A stretch of DNA of 64,000 nucleotides from Rheinheimera sp. 4Y26. GTDB taxonomy: Bacteria; Pseudomonadota; Gammaproteobacteria; Enterobacterales; Alteromonadaceae. The notes beneath the pieces were generated by a model. The model was not told where the DNA came from. It searched no databases and worked only from the letters and a program-made list of their open reading frames with translations. Numbering within the stretch: position 1 is the stretch's first letter; the number at the start of each line of letters is the position of its first letter. Shown in pieces: positions 16,051 to 27,062 of this stretch. Location of the stretch: the NCBI RefSeq assembly GCF_025245835.1, contig NZ_JAOBWS010000001.1, positions 310,001 to 374,000 on the forward strand, given 5' to 3'. A program made the position numbers and the translations under genes.

Positions 16051-16205
16051 TAGAGGCGGTGTCTGCTTTTCACCTGGCAAAACGGCACTATCAGAAAAAG
16101 TCGTGGATAAATCTGCGTTTCCTTTGATGTAAATCCTTGCCTAAGCGTTTGATAATTTGCTGAATATGTTTACACTGGTTTTCTTCGCTTTTGGACGGAT
16201 GTGAT

Positions 16206-18206
16206 ATGCCAGGTTGTAAACCCTACCTCTTATTATTCAGCCTTACCGGCTTTGTCATCAGCCCTTTCGCATGGTCTGCTAATTCAGTGGAAAAAATGTT
16301 GTGGGAAAATGGCCTGGCGAGCTACGAAGCCACAAAAGCCAGCCTGAAAAACAACATGGACTTAAGTGATGTTTCCAGAATTTTATCGTCCCGTTGTGAT
16401 GCAAAATGGTCCAATACTGATGAAGTTCATGCTTTAGAGCAACAATCGGCGGCTTATAACAGTGATGTTGGTCTGGAGTTTCGCGCCGGTTATACCTCTA
16501 AGGATATTCAACGGAATCCGGACGAAAACGAAGGCAATACCTATATGGAGTTGTCCTGGGAGTTGCTGGACAGTGGTTATCTCGATAATCAGTATCAGGC
16601 CACCGATTATAAAAGACAGGCCGCCATCAAAGCCGTGCACGGCAAATTAAAACAACACGAAATTAACTACCAATGTCGTCGTTTTAATTTAAACCGGCAT
16701 TTTGCCGGTTTAGAGCTGCATCTGAATTCAATCAAATTAAAGTTTATGGAAGCAGTTTACGGTGTTGAAAAACAAGCTTATTTTTCCGGCGCCAGTTATC
16801 TGGATGAATTGATGATCCCGGAAGAGGACATCATGCTGGCGCGCCAGACACTGGCCCGTTTACATGCAGATCCTACTCTGGCGACCAGCGAGCTGGAGTT
16901 GATCAACCCGCCGGTCATTGATGTTGATTTAGCCGCCATACTGCAACAAATCGGGCAAAATAAAGACTTTGCGGAGTCGCATCGTCTGCAGCGGCTAAGG
17001 ATTGAAGATCAGGCACAACAAGAAGACTCTTTTTTACAGGGCAGCCGTTTTCGTTTGTTTTTAAGAAAAGAGTTTGATGTGTTCAACAGTGGCCAGGAAG
17101 ACCTGGTGGCCGGTGCCCGCTTGCAGATGCCCATCACTTTTGGCGAAAAAGGATCACAATCTGAAGCAAAGTTAAATCAGCTTGAGCAGGATTTTAGCCA
17201 CGAACAGTGGGAAATCATGACCCGCACCCGCGTTGCCTATGTGGCTTTGCAGGAGCAGCTGGAACGCACCACCAGGCAGCAATACAGAGTGCTGCGGGCA
17301 CAGGAAGCGATGCGCCGGGTACAAAGTTATACGGCGCTTGATATGCCGCTGGATATAGCAGCTGTGAATGTGCGTGTTAAATCCTATATTGACGCTGCCA
17401 TTGAGTTGGGCAACGCCAAACAGGAACTGTACCGCAGAGTGAATGAAATATTTCTGGTCGCGCGGGTGGAATACAACGAGAAGTTTATCAAAGTGAACTC
17501 TTTGAATGAGACTGAACACAGGGCTCGCCCCGGTGAGCGTTCTGTGTATATCTGGTCGGAGCAATTTAACCGTTATTCTAACGCAGAGCTCTTTGCGTTA
17601 TTTGAAACCAAAGGGCTGAAGCATGCATTAGTCAGCGTTGGCAAAAAAGTAGACGCAAAAAAATTATTTGAATTTATGCAAGAGGCTGCTCAGCATCAGG
17701 TTCGCGTCAGTCAGTTATTAGGTGAAGCAAAATGGGCGCTGCAAGAACACCACAACGAGGCGCTGGCAGCCGTTGAAGCCAGAGTGCGATATGGGGATGG
17801 CATTCATCTGGATATAGAACCGCATGCCCTGGCAGAGTACAAAGCCAATCCAAAGCAGGTGCTGCAGGATTTAACTAAGTTGGTTACTGCCATACGCCAG
17901 CGGCATCCGGATATCAATTTAACCCTGTCTGTGCCGCATCATTGGCCGGCTGAAGTGTTGCGCACCCTCGGCAATGATGTCGACCGCGTGTATTTAATGG
18001 CCTATGAAACCAGCGACGCTGAAGTGATTAGCCGCCGGATTAAAACCGTGCTGGCTTCAGTACCCCGGGAAAAGCTGGTGGTCGCGCTTCGAAAGCAGGA
18101 TTTTAATACCGAGTTGCAATTAGAAGCGGCGATAGAGTTATTAGGTCAGGCGACAGGCGTCACCCAATTTGCCGTTCACAAGCTTGATATTTATACACAG
18201 GAGTAA
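16206..18206 (+). CDS. TolC-like outer-membrane protein fused to a GH18-like TIM barrel
   Basis: 666 residues from the ATG at 16206; a TTG at 16191 is the alternative. Signal peptide about 1-25 (PFAWSA). Residues about 40-430 look like a TolC-family efflux duct: long Gln/Glu/Arg-rich helices in two halves, with short strands such as SDVGLEFRAGY and RLFLRKEFDVF where the barrel segments should be. From about 440 on, the sequence changes to an alternating beta/alpha pattern. It carries DGIHLDIEP (D531, D536, E538), resembling the GH18 DGxDxDxE motif with the central Asp replaced by His, then LTLSVPHHW and DRVYLMAYET as later strands. E538, the GH18 general-acid position, is kept. It could trim or bind the exported glycan; the barrel could also be non-catalytic. 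Confidence 0.65.
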   Translation: MPGCKPYLLLFSLTGFVISPFAWSANSVEKMLWENGLASYEATKASLKNNMDLSDVSRILSSRCDAKWSNTDEVHALEQQSAAYNSDVGLEFRAGYTSKDIQRNPDENEGNTYMELSWELLDSGYLDNQYQATDYKRQAAIKAVHGKLKQHEINYQCRRFNLNRHFAGLELHLNSIKLKFMEAVYGVEKQAYFSGASYLDELMIPEEDIMLARQTLARLHADPTLATSELELINPPVIDVDLAAILQQIGQNKDFAESHRLQRLRIEDQAQQEDSFLQGSRFRLFLRKEFDVFNSGQEDLVAGARLQMPITFGEKGSQSEAKLNQLEQDFSHEQWEIMTRTRVAYVALQEQLERTTRQQYRVLRAQEAMRRVQSYTALDMPLDIAAVNVRVKSYIDAAIELGNAKQELYRRVNEIFLVARVEYNEKFIKVNSLNETEHRARPGERSVYIWSEQFNRYSNAELFALFETKGLKHALVSVGKKVDAKKLFEFMQEAAQHQVRVSQLLGEAKWALQEHHNEALAAVEARVRYGDGIHLDIEPHALAEYKANPKQVLQDLTKLVTAIRQRHPDINLTLSVPHHWPAEVLRTLGNDVDRVYLMAYETSDAEVISRRIKTVLASVPREKLVVALRKQDFNTELQLEAAIELLGQATGVTQFAVHKLDIYTQE

Positions 18207-18209
18207 CCG

Positions 18210-19208
18210 GTGAATTTATATAACCGCAAAAGTCTGATCACTGCGGCACCGGAAGGTACACCGGTGACGTCATATAAACCCAGTATTACCAAGTGGATTT
18301 ATTTTAGCCTGGTGATTTTGCTGGTTGCTTATCTTATCTACCTGTTGATAAAACCTTATTACCTGATTGAAGCACAAGGCTTGGTTGATGTTGAGGTTCG
18401 TGATGTGCTGGCTGAGCGGGATGGCATCATGCTGCAACTGGCAGTAAAACAAGGCCAGAGCTTTAAAAAGGGTGAGCTGTTAGCGAGCTTTGCCGCAGAA
18501 AAACGCTGCACTGCCGAGCCCGATCCGGTGCTGGAGAAGCTGTCATTTGATATGCAGCTTGTTAATAATGACATTCAGGCATTACAACGTGAAAAAGCCG
18601 CTTTAGCTGCGATGCCAGCGACTACAGATAGTATGCAACGGGCTCTGGAGGTGAATGCTTCCTTGTTCCGTCAGCAGCAACAACAACAGCAAAAACAGCA
18701 GCAAGAGCTGGATAAGCTAAATCTGGATATTAACAAGGAACAAGAGCGGCTGGCCATTATGGTCGGGCGGCACAGTCGTCTGCTTGAGGCAAAACGGCAA
18801 CAACCTGTCGATGAAGCTTGTCTGGAAAAACACATTTATGCCGGCGAAGATGGGCAGGTCAGGGAAGTCAAAGTATTAGCGCAGGATTTTGCGGTGAAAG
18901 GCCGGCCCATTTTGAAATACAGCCCGGCAGAAGCTCAGGTGCGTGTGGTGTTTCTGGCGGATGCCAAGTTGTATCGTTCTTTTGCTCAGCAATCACAGCT
19001 GGTGGTGTCCTTCCCGGATGGTTCCGAAAGTTTTGGCCGTGTTGAGCAGATTGAATCTGTGGCGAGTCAAATCAGCGGTAATCTGAATGATTTACTTGCG
19101 AAGGACAAGGTGCAATTACGCATGACGCTGGTGCCGGTCAACCCCGCCGATAACAGTTTGTGGCGCATGTTTGAGAGACTACCGGTAGCAGTGAGAGGGT
19201 CATTATGA
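18210..19208 (+). CDS. HlyD-like periplasmic adaptor (membrane fusion protein)
   Basis: 332 residues with a GTG start and a good GGAG site (18200-18203). One transmembrane helix (29-49) follows a short cytoplasmic tail. Two half-lipoyl motifs (about 61-94 and 208-238) flank a coiled-coil hairpin containing a Gln tract at 155-165. The beta-barrel part ends the protein. Such adaptors bridge an inner-membrane machine to a TolC-type duct. Here the usual ABC or RND pump is missing and the only large inner-membrane partner in the operon is a glycosyltransferase, which recalls the adaptor-like part of alginate Alg44. The coiled coil is short. Confidence 0.8.
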   Translation: MNLYNRKSLITAAPEGTPVTSYKPSITKWIYFSLVILLVAYLIYLLIKPYYLIEAQGLVDVEVRDVLAERDGIMLQLAVKQGQSFKKGELLASFAAEKRCTAEPDPVLEKLSFDMQLVNNDIQALQREKAALAAMPATTDSMQRALEVNASLFRQQQQQQQKQQQELDKLNLDINKEQERLAIMVGRHSRLLEAKRQQPVDEACLEKHIYAGEDGQVREVKVLAQDFAVKGRPILKYSPAEAQVRVVFLADAKLYRSFAQQSQLVVSFPDGSESFGRVEQIESVASQISGNLNDLLAKDKVQLRMTLVPVNPADNSLWRMFERLPVAVRGSL

Positions 19209-20608
19209 TGAAGCAGCCGTTGCAATTGGTGTTTGCACAAAACAATAAACCTCTCCTGCAAGCGACAACAACATTTGAAAGCCTGGATAAGGTCGACTGG
19301 CAGCAGGTATCCTGTTTGTTGCTTGACGCTGCTGACATCAGCACAGCTTATGCGGCACTGGTGAAGTTGCGGCAACATAGTTCGCCACATTGCTATTTAA
19401 GGCCGGTGGTGTTTGTTGCTGATACAGAGCGTCAGAGCGGTTGGCAATGGCATTCTGCTGATGCGGTGTTAGTGCTGCAGGGTGACCAGCTGTTTGAGCA
19501 GGTTGCAGTGCCGGATCAGCTGGAAATGATTAACCGCTGGATTGACAATCTGCCGCAGCAGGAAAGAGGCGCAGATGGTCATTTACAGGTCAAAGTGCTG
19601 CGGTTGTTAGCCAGCCGTCAGTCAACTGCCGAACCCCAGGCAACACCAACAAATTACAACGGTTATGTTTATCCGCTGTTACAGCCGGTGTTTTCAATAC
19701 AAGACATGGGCGTGATGCAAACGCTGGGTTTTCTGGAACAGCAGAATTTATTATCAGCGACCTTGTTTGATCGGGCACATTTTTGTATTCACTGTGACAG
19801 CGCCTTTCTCAATTTTAAAGAAACTTGTGTGGCCTGTGGCTCCCACGACCTGGATGTGGTTGAGTTGGTGCACCATTTTAGTTGTGGTTTCACCGCTGAC
19901 ATAACCCGTTTTAAAGCTGGCGGCGACGCATTAATCTGCCCAAAATGTGATAAACATCTGCGCCATATCGGTGTCGATTATGACAAACCATCGACGGTGA
20001 ATAAGTGCCGCCTTTGTCAGCATGTCAGCCAGGAAGGCAATGTGGTGGCGAAGTGTTTTAACTGCAACTGCACGACTGAAGCAAAGTTTCTCGATTTGCG
20101 ACGCATTAATAGTTACAAGCTGACTTCTGTTGGTTTAAATGCCGCTTTTTATGGTCTGAAGACCTATTTTACCGATATTCTGGAAAATGAACTGCAACTG
20201 CTGTCGTTGCGCGAGTTTGAGTTGTTTGCCAATGTTGAAGCTGCCCGCATCGCCCGTTACGGCAAGTCACAAAGCGCGTTGGCGATAGTCCGGTTTGTCG
20301 GACTGGATAAAATACATCTGGAACTGGGGAGCAAAGCCAAACAAATTTTTACTGAGCTGGCAGGGATATTTAAAACCATATTGCGTGAAACCGATATTAT
20401 CACCGCCTACAACGAAAGTATGTTTGCGATTTTAATGCCGGAAACCAGTCAGGATAACGCTGCATTAGCTCTTTCCAGGCTGCAAAAATCTGTTGAGCAG
20501 TTATTTACCGAAAACTTTGACCGCTCGTTGGACATCCAACAGCATGCGCTGGCTGTGACGTCAGAATTGCAGGTACGGGATGCATTAGAGCGGTTTTTAA
20601 ATCAATGA
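19205..20608 (+). CDS. REC-like / TackOD1 zinc-ribbon / degenerate GGDEF regulator
   Basis: 467 residues, cytoplasmic. Residues 1-120 look like a degenerate receiver domain. Residues about 155-300 carry a cysteine-rich module with C194xxC197, C208xxC211, C227, C245xxC248, C268xxC271 and C284xxC287xC289, the layout of the TackOD1 metal-binding output domain. Residues about 340-467 keep the diguanylate-cyclase fold pattern, but the active-site signature is AYNESM (about 401-406) instead of GGDEF. c-di-GMP synthesis is therefore unlikely; it may bind nucleotide or act as a scaffold controlling the synthase. Its ATG overlaps the adaptor stop; a second ATG follows at 19208. Confidence 0.72.
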   Translation: MMKQPLQLVFAQNNKPLLQATTTFESLDKVDWQQVSCLLLDAADISTAYAALVKLRQHSSPHCYLRPVVFVADTERQSGWQWHSADAVLVLQGDQLFEQVAVPDQLEMINRWIDNLPQQERGADGHLQVKVLRLLASRQSTAEPQATPTNYNGYVYPLLQPVFSIQDMGVMQTLGFLEQQNLLSATLFDRAHFCIHCDSAFLNFKETCVACGSHDLDVVELVHHFSCGFTADITRFKAGGDALICPKCDKHLRHIGVDYDKPSTVNKCRLCQHVSQEGNVVAKCFNCNCTTEAKFLDLRRINSYKLTSVGLNAAFYGLKTYFTDILENELQLLSLREFELFANVEAARIARYGKSQSALAIVRFVGLDKIHLELGSKAKQIFTELAGIFKTILRETDIITAYNESMFAILMPETSQDNAALALSRLQKSVEQLFTENFDRSLDIQQHALAVTSELQVRDALERFLNQ

Positions 20609-20618
20609 GACTTTACTC

Positions 20619-21923
20619 TTGATTGAACAAGCCTTTGTATTCTTTATCAATCTGAGTGGCTGGCAACTGTTGGGTTACTTTTGGCCGTTTTTTATGATTG
20701 ATATGGTGCGCTACGTGCTGCTGGAAGGCGTGGTGTTACTGCAATATTTACCGCAGCGTAAGCGAAAGGCGGCATTATACGCAGCGGCAAGGCAGCAGCT
20801 GTTCAGTCAAAAGCCTCTGATCTCAGTGATAGTGCCGGGTAAAAACGAAGGCCGGTATATTCCGAAACTGGTGCAAACCTTGCGTCAGCAAAGTTACCCT
20901 TTTTACGAGCTGATTGTGGTGGATGATGGTTCAGATGATGCCACGCCTGAAATTTGCCGGGAATTAGAGCGTAATGGCTTGATTGACTGTTTTATCCGCA
21001 ACGAAATTCGTGGTGGAAAAGCATCGGCCGCCAATACGGCCCTGCAGTTTGCGAAGGGCCGTTATATTGTGCATATCGACGCTGATTCACACATGGAGCG
21101 GGATGCGCTGGAAACAATTTTATTGCCTTTTTTAATGGATGCCGACGTTGGCTGTGTGGGTGGTGATGTGCGGGTGGCGAATTATGAGGATAGTTTTGCC
21201 GCCCAGATTCAGCGGATTGAGTACAGCAAAAGCATCATGGTGGGTCGTACCGTGGCTTCCCATCTGGGTCTTCTGCGTATAGTGTCGGGCGCTTATGGTG
21301 CATTTCGCCGGGATATTCTCGAGGCCATTCATGGCTGGGACGTTGGTCCTGGATTAGATGGTGATATTACGCTGAAGATCCGCAAAATGGGTTTTAAAGT
21401 GGTGCATGAACCGGCCAGTGTTTGTTATACCAATGTGCCAACCAGTTACACTAAGTTAGCCAAACAGCGCTACCGTTGGGATAAATCCATGATTAGGTTT
21501 CGTCTGCGCAAACACCGCGACATCCTGTGGCCGTCTGAATCCTTTCGCTGGCGCAACTTTATAACAGTGGCTGACAATTTATTTTTTAATTTGCTGCTCG
21601 ACATTAAGTGGGTGATTTACTTTTTCCAGATTATTCAACTCAGCTCTGGTTATATTGCTTTTTTAATCATCCTCAATTATTTCTTTTATGTGTGTGCAAA
21701 TTTGGTGCAGTGGTTGTTCTCGGCAATGATGCTACGGAGCCTCAACCAAAAACCAATGTATCAATCGGTCATGTTTATTCCACTGATGCCGATATATACA
21801 GGAACCTATTTAAGGTTGATTCGCACCTTTGCCTATGTGATGGAATTGCTGCATAAACGTTCTTATGTTGACAGGTGGAATCCGTGGAAAGTTTCGAAGA
21901 TTGCAAAGCGGAATAAACTGTAA
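20619..21923 (+). CDS. Processive family-2 glycosyltransferase (polysaccharide synthase)
   Basis: 434 residues, inner membrane. One N-terminal hydrophobic segment (about 10-44), a GT-A catalytic domain (about 66-300) and at least two C-terminal helices (about 325-385). Motifs of processive synthases are complete: VVDDGSD (D102-D103), the metal-binding DAD at 154-156, a GDI acid region at 248-250 (in place of the usual TED) and QRYRW at 283-287. The layout resembles PgaC/IcaA and NodC. The polymer is not predictable; hexosamine or hexose are both possible. The start is a TTG 10 bases after the previous stop; the ribosome site is weak and ATGs at residues 26 and 29 are alternatives. Confidence 0.85.
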   Translation: MIEQAFVFFINLSGWQLLGYFWPFFMIDMVRYVLLEGVVLLQYLPQRKRKAALYAAARQQLFSQKPLISVIVPGKNEGRYIPKLVQTLRQQSYPFYELIVVDDGSDDATPEICRELERNGLIDCFIRNEIRGGKASAANTALQFAKGRYIVHIDADSHMERDALETILLPFLMDADVGCVGGDVRVANYEDSFAAQIQRIEYSKSIMVGRTVASHLGLLRIVSGAYGAFRRDILEAIHGWDVGPGLDGDITLKIRKMGFKVVHEPASVCYTNVPTSYTKLAKQRYRWDKSMIRFRLRKHRDILWPSESFRWRNFITVADNLFFNLLLDIKWVIYFFQIIQLSSGYIAFLIILNYFFYVCANLVQWLFSAMMLRSLNQKPMYQSVMFIPLMPIYTGTYLRLIRTFAYVMELLHKRSYVDRWNPWKVSKIAKRNKL

Positions 21924-21975
21924 GATAATTGTCGAAATTTTGCTCTCCTTTATTCGCTAACAAGTGAAGGTCATG

Positions 21976-22716
21976 ATGAAGAAGTATGTTGTAGGACTTT
22001 TGTTGTCTGTTATCTCAGCAACTGCAAGCGCGGGTATTATCAAGATTGATACCGCTCAATGGTCACACCAGGCTGGCCCATCGAATGACCTCACCACGGG
22101 GAATTGGGTTGGCGTAAAAGGTCAGGCACCGGAAAAACACAGTAATTCTTCCGGCGCCTTGGTCAGTGACTTCCGGGTTTTTGGCGATTTCCTGTTCAGT
22201 GGTTTTTTTTCACCGACCAAACGAGAGTACGATGACAATGACATCGTTGGTCTGGTATTTGGCTGGCAGGATCCAAAAAACCACTACCGTTTAGGCTGGA
22301 CTCAAACCCAGCGCCCGGGCACAGACGATGATAAATCCTTTGCCGATATTACCGGTCGTACCGGGTTGTTTTTGATTCGCGAAGTGAACGGTAAGTCAGA
22401 AACTTTATTTAATATCAAAGATTTGTTCTGGGAAGATAACGCAAGTTACAGCTTTAACGTTAAACGTGAAGCGAACCAGTTAAAGCTGGATTTTGCCGGC
22501 AACGTATTTGCTGTGACAGATTCAACCTTCCTCAGTGGCCATCTTGGTGTTTACACTGAAAGCCAAACAGCCAAATTCTGGAATTTAAAGGCCGAAGATA
22601 AAACAACATTAAAACCACCACTATCAGTCCCTGTATCTGAGCCGGGAGCTGTGATGTTTTTTTCAGGTTTAGTGATAGCTGCAGCAGTTCGTCGCAGACG
22701 TGAGCAGAATGCCTGA
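21976..22716 (+). CDS. Secreted concanavalin-fold-like protein with PEP-CTERM-like tail
   Basis: 246 residues from the second ATG of a pair (21976), which has AAGG five bases upstream. Signal peptide about 1-19 (SATASA). The middle part (DDNDIVGLVFGWQDPKNHYRLGW..., then SGHLGVYTES and AKFWNL) resembles thrombospondin C-terminal/LamG-like jelly-roll domains, which bind sugars or Ca2+. The tail is SEPG, a hydrophobic helix and an RRRR cluster: the three-part PEP-CTERM sorting signal with Ser in place of the first Pro. Such proteins are processed by an exosortase and are usually linked to exopolysaccharide loci. No exosortase gene is in the window. Confidence 0.75.
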   Translation: MKKYVVGLLLSVISATASAGIIKIDTAQWSHQAGPSNDLTTGNWVGVKGQAPEKHSNSSGALVSDFRVFGDFLFSGFFSPTKREYDDNDIVGLVFGWQDPKNHYRLGWTQTQRPGTDDDKSFADITGRTGLFLIREVNGKSETLFNIKDLFWEDNASYSFNVKREANQLKLDFAGNVFAVTDSTFLSGHLGVYTESQTAKFWNLKAEDKTTLKPPLSVPVSEPGAVMFFSGLVIAAAVRRRREQNA

Positions 22717-22738
22717 AGCTCGTTAAATCACCCGTCGA

Positions 22739-22768
22739 AACGCCGCTTAAATAGCGGCGTTTTTATTT
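22739..22768 (+). terminator. Rho-independent terminator of the polysaccharide-like operon
   Basis: AACGCCGC (22739-22746) and GCGGCGTT (22754-22761) form a perfect 8-bp stem with a 7-base loop followed by TTTTATTT. It lies 22 bases after the PEP-CTERM-like gene and separates it from convergent yigB. Confidence 0.9.
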
Positions 22769-25085: not shown

Positions 25086-25796
25086 ATGGATTTTTTTATC
25101 AAAGGCTGGCAATTCTGGCCAGCTGAACCCGGCCCGGACGCCGGCGCTTTCGACCAGACATCTGCAGAGCCGGCATGGCCAGCCTTACCTCAGGTTCCCG
25201 CCATGCAAAGGCGAAGATTAAGTCCCTTGACCAAAATTGCCTTTGATGTTGCCTTTAGTCAGGCGATTGATGCCGGCACACCGCTGGTATTTGCCTCCCG
25301 TCATGGTGATTTGCCTAAAACAGCAGAATTGTTGTTTGATGTGGCGCAGCAACAGCCCTTGTCACCCACCCAGTTTGCTTTGTCGGTGCATAACGCCATT
25401 GTTGGTCAATACAGTATTTTTCAGCAGCATCAGGCGGCACATTCATCAGTGGCCGGCGGCGACAGTAGCTTGCATTACGCTGTGCTTGAGGCTTTTGGCC
25501 TGATGTCTGATGCCCAGGTGACTGAAGTGCTGGTGGTTTATGCCGACCAGCCGGTGCCTGAGTTATACCAGAGTTTTTGCCCGCAGCCAGTCAGTGCCAG
25601 AGCCGCAGCTTTGTTATTGTCCAAAACCGAAGGTGAAGCGATGCGGCTGAATTATCTGCCTGCTGCAGCTGAGCCGGCGCAGGATGAAGTGGCAGCCTTG
25701 CAGGCATTTTTGCAGTCGGCGCAATCAGGCTGTGCCATTCAGACCCAAAGTGCGCTCTGGCAGTGGCAGCGGAGGCATCATGTGGCAGAAGCTTAA
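25086..25796 (+). CDS. apeC: Chain-length-factor-like ketosynthase subunit (ApeC type)
   Basis: 236 residues matching the truncated beta-ketoacyl synthase N-terminal family found at the head of aryl polyene clusters. It keeps the KS-fold segments RRRLSPLTKIAFDVAF, VFASRHGDL, SVHNAIVGQYSI and GGDSSLHYAVLEA. The active-site cysteine position holds Ser-rich GGDSS instead of the CSS of true ketosynthases, and the C-terminal half with the two histidines is absent. By analogy it pairs with the ApeO ketosynthase as a non-catalytic subunit. The 3' end overlaps apeD by 17 bases. Confidence 0.82.
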   Translation: MDFFIKGWQFWPAEPGPDAGAFDQTSAEPAWPALPQVPAMQRRRLSPLTKIAFDVAFSQAIDAGTPLVFASRHGDLPKTAELLFDVAQQQPLSPTQFALSVHNAIVGQYSIFQQHQAAHSSVAGGDSSLHYAVLEAFGLMSDAQVTEVLVVYADQPVPELYQSFCPQPVSARAAALLLSKTEGEAMRLNYLPAAAEPAQDEVAALQAFLQSAQSGCAIQTQSALWQWQRRHHVAEA

Positions 25797-26571
25797 TCAC
25801 CTCTACCGCATTCTGGCCACGGGTTTTTGTTTTAGTGTTTTTGGGCTCGGTGGTCTGGTGTTGTCGCTGCTGGTGTTTCCGGTGCAACGCTTGTTAATTC
25901 CGGATCAGCATAAACGCCGTCAGGTTGCCCGTTATACAGTGCATCGCAGTTTCAGGTTTTTTATTGGCCTGATGCGTGGCCTCGGGGTATTTAATTTTGA
26001 TTTTCCGGCCAAAGCTGAGCTGGAACAAAGTAAAGGTAAAATTCTGATCGCCAATCACCCCAGCCTGATTGATGTGGTGGCGCTGATTTCAATGTTGCCG
26101 CAGGCAGATTGTGTGGTGAAAGCGCAGTTGTTTCGCAACCCTTTTATGCGCGGGGTGATTCAGTCCACCGGTTATCTGACCAATGCCGACCCGGATTTGT
26201 TATTGCACGACTGCGCCGCTTCGTTAAAAAGTGGCAATACGCTGATTATTTTTCCGGAAGGCACCCGCACCACACCAGGGCTGGCACAGCATTTTCAGCG
26301 CGGCGCGGCCAATATAGCGCTGCGCAGTGGTTGCAATTTTTTTGCTTGTTTTATTCAATGCAAACCAAGCACTTTAACCAAAGATGAAGCCTGGTATCAG
26401 GTACCGGCGCAAAAGCCGACGTTAAAAATCCGGGTATTGCGTGAAATTGATATCCAGCCATTTTTACAACTGGAATCGGCGTCTCTGGCTGCACGGCAGC
26501 TCAGCCGCGAATTAGAAACTTTTTATCATCAGGTAATGACAACTCATGGAACAACTGAAAACCGAACTTAA
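25780..26571 (+). CDS. apeD: 1-acyl-glycerol-3-phosphate-type acyltransferase (ApeD type)
   Basis: 263 residues from the ATG at 25780, chosen for its GGAGG ribosome site at 25771-25775; a longer frame from 25684 would overlap apeC by more than 100 bases. A hydrophobic N-terminal helix anchors it in the inner membrane. PlsC-family motifs are complete: NHPSLID (the HX4D catalytic pair) and FPEGTRT. It probably moves an acyl or polyene group onto a glycerol- or lipid-type acceptor during assembly of the membrane-bound pigment; the acceptor is unknown. Confidence 0.85.
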   Translation: MWQKLNHLYRILATGFCFSVFGLGGLVLSLLVFPVQRLLIPDQHKRRQVARYTVHRSFRFFIGLMRGLGVFNFDFPAKAELEQSKGKILIANHPSLIDVVALISMLPQADCVVKAQLFRNPFMRGVIQSTGYLTNADPDLLLHDCAASLKSGNTLIIFPEGTRTTPGLAQHFQRGAANIALRSGCNFFACFIQCKPSTLTKDEAWYQVPAQKPTLKIRVLREIDIQPFLQLESASLAARQLSRELETFYHQVMTTHGTTENRT

Positions 26572-26812
26572 ACAGCTGATTATCAGCAGTCTGGAATTAG
26601 AGGATATCAGTGTGGATGATATTGACGATGCCGCCCCGCTTTTTGTTGACGGGCTTGGGCTGGATTCAATCGACGCACTGGAGCTGGGTCTGGCAATTAA
26701 AAAACGTTACAACATCAAAATAGATGCCAACGAAAAACAAACCCAACAACATTTTGCCAGCATTAACAATCTGGCGGCTTATGTCAAACAGCAAGCAGTA
26801 CTGGAGAACTGA
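26546..26812 (+). CDS. apeE: Acyl carrier protein 1 (ApeE type)
   Basis: 88 residues with the carrier motif GLDSIDALELG; S41 is the phosphopantetheine attachment site. Acidic helices typical of type II carriers surround it. It starts inside the end of apeD (26-base overlap), so translation is probably coupled. One of two consecutive carriers that hold starter and growing polyene chains. Confidence 0.92.
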   Translation: MEQLKTELKQLIISSLELEDISVDDIDDAAPLFVDGLGLDSIDALELGLAIKKRYNIKIDANEKQTQQHFASINNLAAYVKQQAVLEN

Positions 26813-26813
26813 C

Positions 26814-27062
26814 ATGAAAACTAAAGAAGACGTACTCAAGCTGTTAACCAACATTCTGGTTGAAGAGTTTGAACTGGATGCAGGACAAATTCATCCGGAC
26901 GCGCATTTATATCAGGATCTGGATTTAGACAGCATTGATGCTGTGGATCTGGTGGTGAAGCTGCGCGAGCTGACAGGACGCAAAATAGAGCCTGACGCTT
27001 TTAAACAGGTTCGCACCGTTGGCCATGTGGTTGACGAAGTTTATCAGTTAACTCAAGCCTGA
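26814..27062 (+). CDS. apeF: Acyl carrier protein 2 (ApeF type)
   Basis: 82 residues with DLDSIDAVDLV; S40 carries the phosphopantetheine. The ATG at 26814 lies one base after the apeE stop with GGAG upstream. A longer in-frame start at 26724 lies inside apeE and was rejected. Confidence 0.92.
   Translation: MKTKEDVLKLLTNILVEEFELDAGQIHPDAHLYQDLDLDSIDAVDLVVKLRELTGRKIEPDAFKQVRTVGHVVDEVYQLTQA

Follow-up and report, generated by a model that had tools for sequence, protein, structure and literature searches.

Synthase-dependent exopolysaccharide systems such as pga, bcs, alg and pel each use a porin of their own for passage of the polymer, and pairs of HlyD and TolC proteins usually work with ABC, RND or MFS pumps. 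Here we describe an operon of five genes in Rheinheimera sp. 4Y26, located at positions 16206-22716 of an analysed stretch of 64,000 nucleotides (the window; contig NZ_JAOBWS010000001.1, positions 310,001 to 374,000), in which a TolC-type duct protein, an HlyD-like adaptor and a glycosyltransferase of family 2 (GT2) are encoded together. The operon probably specifies a synthase-dependent exopolysaccharide machine of the Mxd type that brings an outer-membrane duct of its own.

In Shewanella oneidensis, the only species for which this was reported, mutants in mxdA and mxdB lose aggregation, with a defect in biofilm formation (PMC3691769). MxdA is reported to bind cyclic di-GMP (c-di-GMP) and to interact with CheY3, and the Mxd machinery is presumed to synthesise an exopolysaccharide and export it (PMC7666153, PMC11395469); MxdC is described as an efflux-pump homologue and MxdD as a protein without known homology.

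A path from GT2 through HlyD to TolC was proposed earlier for tripartite cellulose export by XcsAB-TolC of Thermosynechococcus (Maeda 2018, according to PMC12430437, where the route is called unproven). That system resembles the operon in having a GT2 synthase, an HlyD-like adaptor, a TolC-type channel and a glucanase, and differs from it in that its genes are scattered, its synthase carries PilZ and its hydrolase is separate (PMC12430437). A BcsA-type synthase with PilZ was not found among the five proteins of the operon. The sfz twisted-stalk cluster of Zetaproteobacteria is alike in its proposed c-di-GMP-linked polysaccharide synthesis; identity with it was rejected, as its genes are different (Sfz1/Sfz2 are assigned to the synthesis of the exopolysaccharide and its regulation, and Sfz4 is a GH10; PMC8250860). 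The words glycosyltransferase and cellulose were not found in the accessible 300,000 of the 747,799 characters of PMC8277102, and a search of open-licence papers found no description of the four-gene set of duct, adaptor, regulator and GT2. The preliminary description of the locus had presented it as a candidate undescribed exopolysaccharide machine, and the word undescribed is not supported: the trio of TackOD1-GGDEF protein, GT2 and HlyD is the mxdABC set of Shewanella (PMC3691769, PMC7666153), and the route had been proposed for cyanobacterial cellulose (PMC12430437).

According to the listing of open reading frames (ORFs) of the window, the five genes lie tightly spaced on the + strand, with gaps of 3, -4, 10 and 40 nt between consecutive ORFs, and are followed by a terminator-like hairpin, in agreement with the layout first described:

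16206-18206, + strand: ORF1, TolC-fold/GH18-like duct protein (ORF 16191/16206-18206, ATG at 16206)
18210-19208, + strand: ORF2, HlyD/MacA/EmrA-like periplasmic adaptor
19205-20608, + strand: ORF3, MxdA-like regulator with TackOD1 and a degenerate GGDEF domain
20619-21923, + strand: ORF4, MxdB-like GT2 synthase
21964-22716, + strand: ORF5, secreted TSP_C-like protein with a PEP-CTERM-like tail
22737-22763, + strand: intrinsic terminator-like hairpin at the operon end (11 pairs, 6 of them G-C, T-rich tail)

The relation to Mxd was traced through published mxd promoter primers (PMC3691769). The primer sequence matched 1 of the 117 genomes of its genus, which we infer to be that of S. oneidensis; the two members of this genus that were tested both had OmcA/MtrC-family cytochromes above cut-off. 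Both primers, forward and reverse, sit just upstream of a TackOD1-GGDEF gene, which is followed by genes for a GT2 and an HlyD protein and by a 122-aa ORF. Pfam matched TackOD1 (4.7e-71), GT2 and HlyD_3 in this locus, with GGDEF slightly under its cut-off (1e-4, 22.5 bits), and gave no match for the 122-aa ORF after mxdC. From the primer position and these matches it follows that ORF3, ORF4 and ORF2 are the counterparts of MxdA, MxdB and MxdC, respectively: MxdA combines TackOD1 with a GGDEF-like domain, MxdB is a GT2 and MxdC an HlyD adaptor, and in the window, too, the three are encoded adjacently. The two loci differ in order (MxdA-MxdB-MxdC in Shewanella; duct-adaptor-MxdA-MxdB in the window) and in the gene for the TolC/GH18-like fusion (TolC-GH), which belongs to the window operon and was not found in 14.5 kb around the Shewanella locus.

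The four-gene order recurs. A scan of named genomes with a regulator alignment gave 500 relatives; the counts that follow are for the 80 best of them, the other 420 being left out. Beside the regulator, the GT2 gene was found downstream in 78, the HlyD gene upstream in 77 and TolC-GH upstream in 70 of these 80 loci; all four were present in the order of the window in 68. A deeper TolC-GH profile detected the gene somewhere in 72 loci, and seven of the eight loci without it end at a contig edge (six at the regulator or HlyD gene; in L104 the HlyD gene starts from the first base of the contig). L084 has an AAA_17 gene upstream of a short HlyD ORF in place of TolC-GH, and in L111 the order is regulator-GT2-TolC-GH-HlyD. 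The record titles span Gamma-, Beta- and Zetaproteobacteria, Delta-labelled groups, Nitrospirae, Bacteroidota, Caldisericaceae and WOR-3, and the nearest loci are titled Rheinheimera (regulator identity 92% and 67%). Since the gene order recurs across phyla, the arrangement is beyond chance.

Immediately upstream of TolC-GH, eight Bacteroidota loci (L086, L088, L093, L096, L097, L098, L101 and L107) have a further GT2-like gene of 316-389 aa, checked with Pfam in L088. The four-gene set is also present in L144 (genome G492), where the frames are broken in several places; this is a decaying or mis-assembled copy.

Within the order of the host, TackOD1 was above cut-off in 14 of the 247 genomes, host included (the count leaves out four matches below cut-off, in G101, G115, G167 and G181), and a GT2 gene adjoined it in all 14. 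An HlyD gene stood beside it in 13/13 fetched stretches with a profile built from other loci (11/13 by single-sequence search), and TolC-GH was found in one of the 13, by single-sequence search or deep profile. The distribution of TolC-GH is patchy: among 147 genomes of the host's family it is full-length only in the host and in G090, with a partial match in G733 (2.9e-42) and an E-value of 2.8e-7 or weaker in the other 19 matching genomes; four genomes of the same genus are listed as matchless in the family scan. In the class, 12 of 369 genomes matched, six of them, host included, with E < 1e-100.

A midpoint-rooted tree was built from 37 GT2 sequences: that of the window, those of 22 of the 80 loci and of 11 of the 13 stretches from the order, and those of the Shewanella stretch and of the loci L145 and L146. 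It separated an Mxd side from a window side with support of 1.0 and 0.99. The window GT2 falls on the side opposite to the Shewanella-type MxdB clade, so that it is an Mxd relative and not a strict MxdB orthologue. On the Mxd side the first to branch off are L145 and L146 (0.95), in which an OEP gene or OEP fusion lies between GT2 and HlyD; on the window side it is L111 (0.996 for the remainder), which carries TolC-GH. As these early-branching loci all carry a duct, an ancestral TolC-type duct is the simplest reading. It would have been lost in Shewanella-type loci, where a general TolC perhaps replaced it. The duct protein of L146 (2933-5443, 836 aa) has an AMIN domain N-terminal to its OEP part; in L145 (5401-7649) a gene of its own encodes the OEP part, next to one that matches the TolC-GH profile.

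ORF1 starts with a signal peptide (by eye), followed by a TolC/OEP fold at about residues 50-420 and a GH18-like TIM barrel at about 440-666, with the residues H534-x-D536-x-E538-P and M598-x-Y600. The Pfam scan of ORF1 gave no match above cut-off, and ORF1 was not in the list of a genome-wide Pfam OEP search; in its family, at E-values up to 0.01, OEP was matched in 21 and Glyco_hydro_18 in 3 of the 59 members (window included). A sequence search of solved structures gave only two matches, of which that to a putative GH97 covered just the hydrolase part (7.6e-8) and the second was weak, and a fold search was therefore needed. The predicted model (window plus the 58 of 63 duct sequences that passed the length cut; mean pLDDT 89.4, pTM 0.77) shows two long-helix repeats that include two-strand hairpins, and after them a TIM barrel. 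Best among its fold matches were TolC and further OEP channels (TM-score 0.35-0.40 by query, about 0.5-0.6 by target), followed at lower ranks by the TIM-barrel enzymes PgaB, Cwp19, GH191, chitinases and ENGases; going by the secondary structure of the model, as aligned ranges were not displayed, the latter would fit the C-terminal part. The fusion described earlier is thereby borne out, the barrel as GH18-like only: the GH18 signature is DxxDxDxE on strand 4, of which the ORF1 family keeps HxDxE (position 531 is variable, 534 is H), and given also the 3/59 Glyco_hydro_18 matches no closer label is warranted.

Loss of the first two aspartates of this signature would also fit a barrel that acts as a carbohydrate-binding gate on the duct and not as a hydrolase. 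We consider this unlikely, because D536, E538 and Y600 are invariant in 66/66 aligned relatives (H534 in 65/66), a pattern expected of catalysis rather than of binding alone. A hydrolase-like barrel on the duct of an Mxd-type machine remains our preference.

ORF2 comprises, in its predicted model, an N-terminal helix (23-50, taken as transmembrane), a split lipoyl domain, a helical hairpin (106-196) and a beta-barrel. It matched HlyD_3 of Pfam below threshold and EmrA as best sequence profile. The model (window plus the 49 of 75 adaptors that passed the length cut; mean pLDDT 85.3, pTM 0.58) was closest to MacA, ZneB, EmrA and MexA/AcrA, with E-values of about 1e-9 to 1e-12 and low TM-scores (0.3-0.5), in line with the HlyD-like adaptor of the preliminary description.

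Duct and adaptor folds are those of TolC/MacA/EmrA efflux pumps and type 1 secretion. Unlike these, the operon encodes no engine (ABC, MFS or RND) among its five proteins in the Pfam scan, and the GT2 would replace it. The nearest adaptor folds (MacA, EmrA, AcrA, MexA) belong to pump adaptors, so that ORF1 and ORF2 might instead export another cargo (the PEP-CTERM protein, or else some small molecule) through a pump encoded elsewhere, with the GT2 independent and merely co-regulated. One RND and one ABC query, with MFS and distant ABC outside the search, found an RND gene in 3 and an ABC gene in 6 of the 80 loci; neither kind of pump is consistently paired with the four genes. Four of these nine pump genes do lie directly upstream of the operon, an RND gene with its own HlyD in L053, L055 and L065 and an ABC gene in L067, which speaks very slightly less for an Mxd-type machine and very slightly more for a pump; the other five ABC genes lie about 2.6-3.8 kb from the core. 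Against a pump stands the company kept by the adaptor, upstream of TackOD1-GT2 in 77/80 loci and beside the GT2 in 13/13 order stretches, so that adaptor and GT2 travel together even without TolC-GH. Export of another cargo is therefore rather improbable, and we retain the Mxd-type reading. In L053, L055 and L065 (titled Stewartia symbiont, Thiodiazotropha and Chromatiales) the RND-type gene encodes 1039 aa and lies with its HlyD gene upstream of TolC-GH; that of L053 matches ACR_tran of Pfam.

Processive synthases are recognised by DD, DxD, a catalytic D, Q(Q/R)xRW and membrane helices. ORF4 is a GT2 in which D102, D103, D154, D156, D247 and QRxRW (QRYRW in the window) are invariant in all 74 aligned sequences, window included, and its hydrophobic C-terminal region and membrane helices were seen by eye; the processive GT2 with D102/D103, DAD and QRYRW noted at first thus stands as far as its motifs go. 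Its best NCBIfam match is PgaC/IcaA (residues 20-420, 159 bits, below the cut-off of 422), with weaker matches to MftF, NodC and HpnI-type transferases, and its solved-structure matches include hyaluronan, chitin and cellulose synthases. A BcsA/cellulose identity was rejected (CelA 27.8 bits against a cut-off of 699, PilZ unmatched). The other GT2 matches in the host genome, six in number, are local and weak (at most 41.5 bits).

With pga, which makes poly-N-acetylglucosamine, the operon shares PgaC as nearest NCBIfam family of ORF4 and PgaB as a fold match of the duct (rank 39, low TM-score); unlike in pga, the five window proteins have no PgaA-type porin/TPR or deacetylase match, and the duct is TolC-type. 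The PgaC match and the GH18-like residues suggest that the polymer may be of N-acetylhexosamine type. A GT2 that works non-processively, or that acts on a lipid or envelope glycan so that the operon decorates the surface and secretes no free polymer, would suit the weaker transferase matches and an mxd literature in whose accessible text no polymer chemistry was found, but is very unlikely in view of the PgaC/IcaA match (though sub-cut-off), the polymer synthases among the solved structures, a QRxRW as in processive synthases, and the mxdB biofilm phenotype (PMC3691769).

ORF3 consists of a variable N-terminal domain, a TackOD1 zinc-ribbon domain and a degenerate GGDEF domain with RxxD. Pfam matched TackOD1 (1.6e-50) and GGDEF (1.2e-5, 25.5 bits, cut-off 23.8), as the preliminary description had read it; the response-regulator (REC) domain that it had placed in the same protein was not confirmed. 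Response_reg was matched neither in ORF3 nor among the 25 families listed, of 37, for 22 members, and D41 lies outside the columns conserved in 85%. Several designed TIM barrels that matched residues 27-69 of the regulator were taken as spurious. The regulator alignment comprised the window, 19 of 79 sequences and two others. A literature search for TackOD1 found one paper; the domain is named in PMC5847659, where its function is obscure.

ORF3 has NESMF in place of the GGDEF motif, and an intact GG(D/E)EF, as needed for an active diguanylate cyclase, occurs in 0/80 loci. RxxD is present as RETD (R394, D397); in the 14 sequences from the order, D397 never varies and R394 is conserved in at least 90%. 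With taxon labels taken from record titles (L113 set apart, as its title, Kuenenia, misfits its sequence neighbours), RxxD was kept in 20/20 Proteobacteria-labelled, 4/4 Delta-labelled, 1/1 Nitrospirae and 2/2 other loci. The division between 24/24 Proteobacteria- or Delta-labelled loci and 11/52 Bacteroidota is new. Going by these residues, the proteobacterial regulator would be a c-di-GMP receptor without cyclase activity, and most Bacteroidota would use another mode. Most Bacteroidota are not known to have c-di-GMP.

ORF5 matched TSP_C (3.2e-8), and its PEP-CTERM tail stayed below threshold (0.055, 14 bits, cut-off 20.7); a single exosortase match in the host genome (2e-64) lies away from the operon. 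This is compatible with the PEP-CTERM-like secreted protein proposed at first. The gene is accessory, present in 6 of the 80 loci (L043, L044, L048, L051, L052 and L062; titles Rheinheimera, Aliiglaciecola and Alteromonas) and in G090.

In the Mxd-type machine that we propose, the MxdB-like GT2 would build a chain from activated sugar on the cytosolic side and extrude it through its own membrane channel, with the MxdC-like adaptor forming a periplasmic sleeve between synthase and TolC-fold trimer. The GH18-like domain would hang on the periplasmic side of TolC and may trim or clear chains, as the hydrolases of pga, bcs and pel do. The MxdA-like TackOD1/degenerate-GGDEF protein would turn the synthase on when c-di-GMP occupies RxxD, and the TSP_C/PEP-CTERM protein might be a surface partner of the polymer in the lineage of the window. 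Of the new layout for polymer secretion claimed in the preliminary description, the common encoding of duct, adaptor and GT2 stands; their physical coupling is something we infer.

Several observations weigh against this interpretation. The 80 loci are the closest of the 500 relatives, so that 68/80 is a biased rate. The adaptor hairpin has no column conserved in at least 85% of 76 sequences, and TM-scores are modest for the fold matches of both duct and adaptor. RxxD was kept in just 11 of the 52 Bacteroidota loci and not in the single unplaced one; as the arginine is mostly missing there, control by c-di-GMP cannot be general. The deep TolC-GH model was empty in 12 of the 13 stretches from the order, as it was in the 14.5 kb from Shewanella, and Pfam found no OEP protein among 10 neighbouring ORFs in Shewanella and five other Mxd-type loci; an on-board duct is therefore not obligatory. 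The chemistry of the Mxd polymer, as said, was not found in the accessible mxd literature.

What is new is the operon-encoded duct joined to a hydrolase-like domain whose D/E residues never vary, and the breadth across phyla. It is conceivable, if somewhat short of probable, that the loci represent a pump-less tripartite machine of several phyla, in which a GT2 engine feeds a MacA/EmrA-type adaptor and a TolC trimer with three periplasmic hydrolase domains. Polysaccharide export would then have taken over parts of efflux systems; control would be by c-di-GMP in Proteobacteria and, in Bacteroidota that lost the c-di-GMP site, of a different kind based on the zinc ribbon. The parts stand in one operon and in the same order in many bacteria, whereas the genes of the cyanobacterial counterpart are scattered; because duct, adaptor and GT2 share one operon, the route can be tested directly by single-gene deletion. 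The arrangement hints at what the outer half of the poorly understood Mxd machine could be and links the uncharacterised TackOD1 domain to the control of polysaccharides. It also indicates that Bacteroidota have a matrix system with a regulator mostly lacking the c-di-GMP site.

The host genome assembly is 4.08 Mb in 33 contigs. The operon is flanked by genes unlike it in kind, for an alpha/beta hydrolase upstream and, on the opposite strand, a HAD hydrolase downstream. A promoter-like site at 16149-16176 was rejected as not above chance (9 such sites in the region against 12.5 expected). Further along the window, the + strand genes that extend from 25684-27062 to about 42000, among them one for an acyltransferase and two for acyl-carrier proteins, look like the start of a lipid biosynthesis cluster, perhaps of the aryl-polyene type.

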